Shown here: one piece after another, positions 44,106-46,440 of the stretch
Position numbering within the stretch: the stretch's first letter is position 1
Layout of the letters: every line of letters starts with the position of its first letter
Source of the DNA: Synechococcus sp. WH 8109
Lineage (GTDB): Bacteria; Cyanobacteriota; Cyanobacteriia; PCC-6307; Cyanobiaceae
NCBI RefSeq assembly: GCF_000161795.2
Contig: NZ_CP006882.1
Coordinates: 558,001-622,000, forward strand
Reading direction: 5' to 3'
Length of the DNA: 64,000 nt
The notes under the pieces: model-generated
Database searches by the model: none
The model's input: only the letters and a program-made list of their open reading frames with translations
Told to the model about the DNA's origin: nothing
Position numbers and translations under genes: made by a program

Positions 44106-44573
44106 ATGCCCGGACCCGTCGTCAATGGCGTTCGTCAGGCCGGAGCAATTGGCTCTGTTACCCCCGACTCCCAAGAGCAGGAGGCGATGCTCCCCTTGGT
44201 GGCTGAGGGTTCCATCCGTCTCATCCTGTTGTGCAGTGGCGATGTCCTGATGGCGCGGCTGCGCCACACCACCGATCGCGATGGAGATCATGCTTATCAA
44301 CTGCTGAGGCCCCGTCTGGTGCGTTCAGCGGCAGATGCCTCACAAGATGCTCAGCCCAGTTGGGTGCTTCAGCCTTACCTGGAGGGGCTGACGTCGCAGC
44401 ACAATCTGGTGCTTTTCAAGGGGGCGGTTGCTTCAGTGCTTGAACCGGATGCTCGCCTGCTTCAGGCCTATGCGCTTGAAACACGCCAGGAGTGTCCTTT
44501 GGAGGAAACTCCGGTGGAGCGCTTGAAGCGTGCTTTTCAGGAATTCACGGAGACCTTTGAGGGAAACCCTTGA
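44106..44573 (+). CDS. Conserved cyanobacterial hypothetical protein
   Basis: The product is 155 residues, soluble, with an acidic C-terminal half. It contains EAMLPLVAEGSIRLILLCSG (about 26-45), a YQLLRPRLVRSAADAS segment and PVERLKRAFQEFTETFEGNP at the end. No catalytic motif or membrane segment is seen. It lies between hemC (divergent) and rpoD (convergent). I recognise only that it looks conserved; no function can be given. Confidence 0.75.
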   Translation: MPGPVVNGVRQAGAIGSVTPDSQEQEAMLPLVAEGSIRLILLCSGDVLMARLRHTTDRDGDHAYQLLRPRLVRSAADASQDAQPSWVLQPYLEGLTSQHNLVLFKGAVASVLEPDARLLQAYALETRQECPLEETPVERLKRAFQEFTETFEGNP

Positions 44574-44597: not shown

Positions 44598-44627
44598 AAA
44601 GGAAAACCCCAGTCTATGACTGGGGTT
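44598..44627 (-). terminator. Terminator downstream of rpoD (and of the candidate small RNA)
   Basis: A perfect 10-bp stem, AACCCCAGTC with GACTGGGGTT around TAT (44605-44627), is followed on the minus strand by a TTTTCCTTT tail. It is suited to end rpoD transcription 134 nt after the stop. No T run follows on the plus strand, so it is weaker for the convergent gene ending at 44573. Confidence 0.82.
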
Positions 44628-44665
44628 CGATCTCTTCCGTGTGAGGAGGGCGTCTCAATTCCCTC
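44598..44665 (-). ncRNA. Candidate Yfr1-like small RNA downstream of rpoD
   Basis: On the minus strand a TATAAG box (44673-44678) is placed about 8 nt before a G at 44665. From there about 68 nt lead to a terminator. The sequence has a GAGGG/CCCTC pairing at its 5' end (44661-44665 with 44646-44650), then CTCCTCACAC, then a 12-nt spacer and a strong hairpin with a T-rich tail. Yfr1, a cyanobacterial regulator, is a 54-70 nt RNA with an unpaired ACUCCUCACAC and a terminator hairpin. Here the first base differs and the gene neighbours are not those I recall for Yfr1 (guaB-trxA). It may equally be the rpoD 3' untranslated region. Confidence 0.35.
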
Positions 44666-44760
44666 AAGCTCTCTTATAGGAGCGCTTCACTCCATTCAGC
44701 TAGGGGGAATGTACTTATGTATTACTCCCGTGACCATTTGGTGACGGGCCCAGTGCGGGC

Positions 44761-46137
44761 TTACTTGATGTATTCCTTGAGGACCCCATTGCGGTTGGGG
44801 TGGCGCAATTTGCGCAGGGCCTTGGCTTCGATCTGACGGATCCGTTCACGGGTCACATCAAAAATCTGACCAATTTCCTCGAGGGTCTTCATCCGCCCGT
44901 CGTCCAAGCCGTAGCGCAGGCGCAGCACATCGCGCTCGCGGGGGCTGAGGGTGGCCAAAACTCCTTCCAGGTCTTCACGAAGCAGGTTTTTGGCGACGTC
45001 CTGCTCGGGATTCTCGATGTCGGCTTCGATGAAATCGCCCAGGCGGGAATCCTCTTCCTTGCCGATGGGGGTCTCCAGGGAGATCGGCAGCTGGGCACTC
45101 TTGGCGATGAAGCGCAGTTTTTCGATGGTCATTTCCATCGATTCCGCGATTTCCTCTTCCGTTGGCTTGCGGCCGAATTCCTGGGAGAGAACCTTGGTGG
45201 TCTTCTTGATCCTGGAGATAGTTTCGTAGAGGTGGACTGGCAGGCGGATGGTGCGGCTCTGGTCGGCGATGGCGCGTGTGATGGCCTGGCGAATCCACCA
45301 TGTGGCGTAGGTGGAGAACTTGTAGCCCTTTTCGTGGTCGAACTTCTCGGCTGCACGAATCAGGCCAAGGCTTCCTTCCTGAATCAGGTCTTGGAAGCTC
45401 AGGCCCCGATTCATGTACTTCTTGGCAATCGAGACCACCAGGCGCAAGTTGGATTGCACCATTTTTTCCTTGGCCCGTCTGCCCAGCATCAAGCGCCGGC
45501 GGAAGCGGATGAGCGGCATTTCCACCAGGGCCGCCCACTCCTTGTTGTCGGGTTCCCGCCCGTTGTCGCTTTCAAATTGAGCGGCCAGTTCCTCGAGATA
45601 AAGAAGATCGGCAATTTTGCGGGCCAGTTCGATCTCTTCGTCGGGACGCAGCAGGCGGATCCGACCGATTTCCTGCAGATAAACCCGGATGGAGTCTTCG
45701 GTGTAAACGCCTTTGGGGCCGATCTTGATGCTGGCCAGGGCTTTTGCCTTGGCTTCCTTCTCAGCGGCTGCTGTTTTGGCTTTCTCCTCGGCGGTTGGTT
45801 TCGCTGCTGCTGCTTTGGCTGTTGATGCCTTGGTGGCGCTCTTCTTGGCGGTGGCTGCCTTCTTGGTTGTGGTGGACTTTTTCGTTGTGGTTTTGGTCTT
45901 GGTTGTTTTCGCTGCAGCCTTTTTGGTGGTTCCCGAAGCTTTGGCTTGATCTGCAGCGGCGAGAAGTTCGTCGGCTGCGGCGCTGAGGTCTTTGGCGCTC
46001 GCCTTGCTGGTTCGTCGGCGTGCAGGGGTTTTCTTGGCCTCTTCGTCGGAACCCTTGGCGACTTCCTTCACCTTGCCGTCAGCATTGGCCAGAAGAACGA
46101 TGTCCGGCTTGGCAGCTTTGGTGGCAGCAGGGGTCAT
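44761..46137 (-). CDS. rpoD: Principal RNA polymerase sigma factor (group 1, sigma-70)
   Basis: The 458-residue housekeeping sigma factor has region 1.2 ([16 protein letters not shown], about 148), region 2 ([58 protein letters not shown]), region 3, and region 4 ([40 protein letters not shown]). Before region 1.2, about residues 25-130 form a low-complexity stretch of Ala, Lys and Thr repeats (for example [17 protein letters not shown]), resembling a histone-tail-like linker. ATG 46137 is chosen; the longer frame to 46362 has a non-protein-like N-terminus. Confidence 0.97.
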
Positions 46138-46440
46138 GGTGTTAGTCGAAGTCGGATAAGGGGGAAAGCAACAGCGGCAGCAACGCATCAACGGCAATGG
46201 CCGAAACCAAGAACTTCCGCTCAAACGAAGAGAACGACGCAGCTTTCGCTGAGACGGAGTACATGGGCTGATGGTGGTGTCCGCGAGTCGACGAAACGCT
46301 TGGACTGATTGTGTCTGTGCTGTCCGGGGTGGTCTCAGACCGGTCAAAGTGGCAAGGAACAAGACCTTGACTTCAGACTCTGTGTCTTCCCTCTGGATCG
46401 AGCGCAGGGTTGGCAGAAACTGTCCAACCTGTCCACGTTA
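46138..46440. other. rpoD-priA divergent intergenic region, no gene seen
   Basis: This stretch of about 303 nt separates the starts of rpoD and priA. Frames crossing it (to 46362 leftward, from 46309 rightward) are only upstream extensions of those genes with unnatural composition. It should contain both promoters. A TTGACTT (46377-46383) could serve as a -35 element for priA, but no convincing -10 box follows at the right distance. I see no RNA gene or repeat. Confidence 0.5.

Follow-up and report, generated by a model that had tools for sequence, protein, structure and literature searches.

The Yfr1 RNA of cyanobacteria (RF01116; PMC2190773) is a small RNA of 54-69 nt in which a hairpin is followed by CUCCUCACAC and a terminator; its gene is located between guaB and trxA, and its ultraconserved sequence, 5'-ACUCCUCACAC-3', finds a complement at the Shine-Dalgarno regions of porin genes. 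The motif of Yfr1 has been described also in Yfr10, Yfr12 and Yfr18, in Yfr10 and Yfr104 of Prochlorococcus and in Syr5 of Synechocystis (PMC2518516, PMC6778093). Yfr10-like RNAs are separate small RNAs that occur besides the true Yfr1, have no fixed synteny with it and are characterized as a group by induction in darkness or lowered levels in high light (PMC2518516, PMC6778093). In Prochlorococcus MED4, Yfr10 was reported to rise in the dark (PMC6778093), and Yfr10 has been verified in Synechococcus WH8102 as well (PMC6778093, Fig. S6). Furthermore, Yfr1 has been demonstrated in MED4 to repress a porin 5'UTR reporter, this repression is relieved by Yfr2, and UCCU mutants no longer bind the ppa mRNA (PMC6778093). 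Yfr2, whose family carries the name Cyano-1 in Rfam (RF01701; PMC8400943), is a partner and not a relative of these RNAs, since its 5' end bears the complementary motif.

In the window, by which we mean the whole stretch of 64,000 nt of Synechococcus sp. WH 8109 DNA that was analysed, we were able to confirm a predicted small-RNA gene near rpoD at positions 44665-44598 of the minus strand (44598..44665), referred to here as the window sRNA. The TATAAG box, an RNA of about 68 nt, the 10-mer, the spacer and the T-tailed terminator named in the original prediction are all in place on that strand. The transcript is predicted from sequence, fold and conservation to measure 63-68 nt, and model R1 scores 94.3 bits here. 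All parts lie on the minus strand. The -10 box TATAAG occupies 44673..44678, with the likely +1 predicted at G44665, 7 nt past the box. The 5' hairpin (GAGGG-AATTGAGACG-CCCTC, 44646..44665) reads GAGGGAATTGAGACGCCCTC from 44665 to 44646 and includes in its stem the first three bases of the Yfr1-type pairing motif CTCCTCACAC (44639..44648); the near-invariant linker GGAAGAGATC (44629..44638, then G at 44628) leads to an intrinsic terminator with T tail (44598..44628, stem-loop 44628-44604). In the predicted fold, a largely unpaired region separates a hairpin of 5 bp and a 10-nt loop from the terminator; CUC belongs to the 3' arm of this hairpin, and CUCACAC follows directly. The fold is better than that of 200 out of 200 dinucleotide shuffles (z -3.0), and the 5' hairpin by itself is predicted at -5.9 kcal/mol. 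The 10-mer CTCCTCACAC says little on its own, since 0.26 occurrences are expected per window and 24 of 100 shuffled versions of the window contain it; it is conservation that makes the unit more than chance.

A search with a 121-nt query detected the unit in 27 of the 34 genomes of the genus. Both the box and the motif are conserved in these relatives, which agrees with the original view of the locus as a separate small-RNA unit with the Yfr1 pairing motif. A block of 37 nt, GAGGGAATTGAGACGCCCTCCTCACACGGAAGAGATC, is nearly constant across the 27 genomes; its very few substitutions are confined to one hairpin-loop position (T, A or C) and a few single changes 3' of the motif. In the most diverged copy (G006) only this block is still recognisable, at 100% over exactly 37 nt. 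The terminator varies in sequence while its helix is kept (94.5% paired), 5 of 11 pairs being changed on both sides among the 27 orthologs, and none of the shuffles or slid controls reaches its covariation score. The genomes without a match are five incomplete ones, one nearly complete (G029) and G001, in which a decayed copy (L081, G001:C1:1626051-1626117) follows the rpoD stop, with TGTAAA as -10 box and the motif changed to CATCTCAGATG; the gene has therefore been lost in one lineage that retains the paralog described below. A covariance model applied to 400 genomes of the family recovered no credible copy from any other genus: the matches there are weak (24-33 bits), and those inspected have only the terminator in common. 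All named matches in the public genome set came from marine Synechococcus or from bins of marine cyanobacteria. Judged by these searches, the window sRNA is restricted to a single genus of marine Synechococcus. A phage origin was considered and rejected; the 18-mer is present in two IMG/VR contigs, where it lies within phage coding genes and is thus a chance match, and phage records gave no match to the window sRNA.

The window sRNA resembles Yfr1 in its size, in the order of hairpin, CUCCUCACAC and terminator and in the complement at porin Shine-Dalgarno regions, but it is not Yfr1: it has the Yfr1 pairing sequence in a different architecture. Its hairpin loop measures 10 nt and its motif is not fully unpaired. 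It reads CCTCCTCACAC and so matches the ultraconserved core at 10 of 11 positions in all 27 intact orthologs, the first base being the one already noted as different, and it is placed between rpoD and a convergent gene, not between guaB and trxA. As expected, a true yfr1 is found elsewhere, at C1:1511410-1511466, and with 67.5 bits it is the sole Rfam Yfr1 match of the genome. The idea of a second Yfr1 had to be given up as far as structure is concerned. The published RNAMotif descriptor, which places the motif in an unpaired stretch of 12-20 nt between two stem-loops, gave 0 matches on the window sRNA in its strict form, and likewise when one mismatch in the motif or a longer loop was allowed, since the 5' hairpin takes up part of the motif; a match is obtained only when overlap between helix and motif is permitted. 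Yfr1 of MED4, the genome's own Yfr1 and a third unit (see below) all pass. Covariance scoring, proposed as a check and counting scores above 38 bits as Yfr1, led to the same outcome, with no match of RF01116 at the window sRNA at E up to 10 and nothing credible from Rfam at this site under gathering or permissive thresholds.

The nearest known group are the Yfr10-like RNAs, to which the window sRNA belongs by its motif, not by the structure described for them. It shares with them that it exists besides the true Yfr1, bears the Yfr1 motif (10 of 11 bases), lacks fixed synteny with Yfr1 and has a predicted potential to pair with Yfr2. However, the Yfr10-like motif is A-CUCCUCACAC, whereas the window sRNA has C-CUCCUCACAC, and while the motif of Yfr10 is described as sitting in the loop that caps a stem, the 5' hairpin of the window sRNA takes the first three motif bases into its 3' arm. 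Moreover, yfr10 of high-light (HL) Prochlorococcus lies upstream of yfr2, in contrast to the site between rpoD and the convergent gene, and the window sRNA is almost invariant in its genus. The genome holds four CTCCTCACAC sites, all in one network of Yfr1-motif RNAs and Yfr2: the window sRNA, the true yfr1, the third unit and the antisense of a Cyano-1 RNA 5' end. The third unit (L033, C1:1196574-1196583, minus strand; homologs L036-L047) has the full ACTCCTCACAC, a hairpin and a terminator, occurs in 15 of the 34 genomes of the genus and passes the published Yfr1 descriptor, which makes it a good candidate, by sequence, for the real Synechococcus Yfr10. This bears on the question whether the window sRNA is itself the RNA already detected as 'Yfr10' in WH8102, so that the gene would be known. 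The verification of Yfr10 in that strain and the wide distribution of the window sRNA in the genus speak for this identity, but the third unit, with its full motif and its fit to the descriptor, is an equal or better candidate, and the window sRNA motif straddles the 3' arm instead of crowning a stem; we therefore consider the identity quite conceivable, if on balance doubtful.

The predicted partners of the window sRNA are one Yfr2 RNA and the Shine-Dalgarno regions of SLH/OprB porin genes, where TTTCCTGTGTGAGGA is conserved in the genus. Targets were predicted by sequence pattern, not genome-wide. Of the 11 copies of the complementary 9-mer GTGTGAGGA in the genome, three are the antisense of the three motif RNAs, one is a Cyano-1/Yfr2 5' end, and two are found five bases 5' of the ATG of two porin genes (the porin read out has SLH and OprB domains). 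The leader pattern TTCCNGTGTGAGGA yielded 42 sites in 23 of 34 genomes, and all but one of the 30 loci examined directly precede a porin ATG (29/30); the leader has the sequence TTTCCTGTGTGAGGAATTCAATG, and TTCCTGTGTGAGGA recurs in the genus. The core duplex reached -22.8 and -21.5 with two porin leaders, whereas the best value among the 61 other gene starts in the window was -19.2; of 2000 shuffled versions of the core, 8 did equally well on the porin leaders. The invariant GGAAG of the linker and adjoining base lies opposite TTTCC of the leader, with a single bulged base in between, and may lengthen the pairing, an extension that Yfr1 is without. Replacement of either UCCU or GGAAG weakens the predicted porin duplex. 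Under whole-molecule cofolding the porin leaders ranked high, not first, with 4 of 61 background starts equally good, and longer complementary sites (an 18-mer with the whole linker, up to 3 mismatches) matched, beyond the gene itself, at control level. Since the conservation of TTCC in the leaders came from a pattern that required TTCC, and since the porin genes are paralogs whose common leaders are not independent events, the porin evidence is supportive and not proof. In two genomes, porin genes 1.76 kb apart (L197/L220 in G001, L199/L222 in G003) each possess their own TTCCTGTGTGAGGA leader and are apparently tandem copies.

Concerning the control of porin mRNAs suggested in the original prediction, these messages indeed come out as the best predicted mRNA targets, while regulation itself is so far a prediction at the level of sequence. 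The findings on Yfr1 and Yfr2 in MED4 make a block of porin translation that is buffered by Yfr2 the most likely action here. Accordingly worded, the reading that we favour, and hold to be probable, is that of an autonomous trans-acting sRNA gene with its own promoter and terminator, whose product pairs with porin Shine-Dalgarno sequences, blocks translation and can be titrated by Yfr2; the window sRNA probably silences the mRNAs of outer-membrane porins and base-pairs with Yfr2. It would be transcribed from the AAGTAC box plus TATAAG, the former presumably reading the signal. The stretch (C)UCCUCACAC, extended by GGAAG, would pair with GUGUGAGGA at the Shine-Dalgarno sequence of SLH/OprB porin mRNAs and thereby may block their translation; because the 5' hairpin holds the first motif bases, this pairing must partly open the hairpin. 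The motif would also pair with the 5' end of Yfr2 (Cyano-1), which may titrate or buffer the window sRNA. The unit, its conservation, the compensatory hairpin and the complementary sites are all evident in the genomes compared. The motif is also found in Yfr1 and in one or more further RNAs of this cell, so porin control may not be a task of the window sRNA alone.

Alternatively, the window sRNA might serve chiefly as partner or decoy in the Yfr2 network, freeing or blocking Yfr2 targets, with porin pairing as a by-product. A search with the MED4 Yfr2 sequence GTGTGTAGGAG found no Yfr2 in the genome, whereas the Rfam Cyano-1 model (RF01701) revealed four such RNAs. These show the opposite motif sense, a GAAACAAGG element and no sequence relation to the window sRNA. 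One of them (L115, C1:1946749-1946817) has a perfect 5' complement, GTGTGAGGAGT, of the Yfr1 motif, comprising GTGTGAGGAG, and the strongest predicted cofolding gain with the window sRNA (-16.0, falling to -9.8 after UCCU replacement). In addition, Yfr2 of MED4 binds Yfr1 and Yfr10 more strongly than an mRNA target (PMC6778093). However, the full complement is present in only one of the four copies, the other three having shorter or imperfect matches to the motif and predicted gains of -5.6 to -8.9, and the conserved GGAAG, which fits the porin leaders and not the 5' end of L115, would be left unexplained. A role confined mainly to Yfr2 thus appears unlikely to us.

For the favoured reading of an autonomous gene, the promoter region is of importance. 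TATAA is kept in 26 of the 27 intact copies, 11-12 nt 5' of GAGGG, and AAGTAC stands 38 nt 5' of the TATA in most copies; in the window the upstream box TAAGTACA lies at 44710..44717 (minus strand, about -52 to -45), and nearly all copies keep it. The 34 genomes contain 20 matches to the pattern TAAGTACA-N29..33-TATAA, all of which precede the window sRNA gene. Since no -35-like hexamer was found upstream of the window sRNA, we infer an activator at the AAGTAC box, which is a likely binding site. The upstream neighbour rpoD (44761..46362, minus strand), an ORF with the Pfam sigma-70 regions 1.2, 2, 3 and 4, encodes the principal sigma-70 factor; its stop lies 94 nt upstream on the same strand and no strong U-tailed terminator was seen between rpoD and the unit, as would suit an RNA that is only the rpoD 3' end, read through to a terminator. 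This is very unlikely: the place beside rpoD holds here but is not constant, with distances of 628, 1050, 1110, 1360 and 3210 nt in several genomes (0.6 to over 6 kb) where other genes or whole islands intervene, and with no rpoD within about 7 kb in some, and the boxes and the full sequence of the RNA are unchanged throughout, so that the window sRNA would be its own transcription unit. Moreover, the conserved block begins exactly at the start expected from the TATAA promoter. By these comparisons the adjacency to rpoD is incidental, and the constant neighbour is the convergent ORF starting MPGPVVNGVR (44106..44573, plus strand; function unknown, weak Pfam match to DUF6561). The gap between rpoD and the sRNA (L160-L165) is an insertion hotspot that contains recombinase-like and very large variable genes in several genomes. 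A short peptide gene (NTG AGA CGC CCT CCT CAC ACG GAA GAG ATC ...) can practically be dismissed, for although the sole variable base of the first 27 nt makes the codon ATG or CTG instead of TTG, GAGGG stands just 5' of NTG and some third-position changes are silent, there is no common stop codon, the frame crosses a terminator with insertions and deletions, and paralogs shift register past CACAC.

The 5' hairpin is invariant in the 27 orthologs and therefore uninformative there; its test is supplied by a paralogous family. The pattern GGNNTTGAGACACCCCTCACAC gave one match per genome in 20 of the 34 genomes and zero with the reversed-pattern control, and a terminator-like stretch follows every copy that was read out. 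Several paralogs have the stem AGGGG/CCCCT in place of GAGGG/CCCTC: in two pairs both bases differ, around an unaltered TGAGAC loop, so at the sequence level the family conserves the hairpin through compensatory changes. The WH 8109 paralog is located at C1:732455-732476 (L121); the family (L118-L129) reads GGGG..TGAGACA..CCCCTCACAC plus terminator and has a different, CACACCTGGACA-like upstream region. That three motif bases are held in the hairpin suggests a gated seed. As a tentative extension, which we rate as possible though rather improbable, the window sRNA and its paralog (GGGG..UGAGACA..CCCCUCACAC) might form a genus-specific two-gene family. The hairpin, whose UGAGAC loop is invariant, would act in it as a further functional element that masks the Yfr1-type seed until the proper target or signal releases it, and at least four differently gated motif RNAs would then face the same set of porin mRNAs together with the four Yfr2 decoys.

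Marine Synechococcus are major primary producers of the ocean with few protein regulators. If the favoured reading is correct, their envelope porins would be under several parallel small RNAs with one seed and their own promoters, set against several Yfr2 decoys, and it would become testable why the Yfr1 motif is almost unchanged in cyanobacteria and how its copies share the work. The window sRNA also suggests that the motif may act even when partly masked, a situation that published descriptors would miss. A further unit of hairpin, TCCTCACAC and terminator was observed in two genomes (L087 in G004, L089 in G005), the former passing the Yfr1 descriptor with one motif mismatch.
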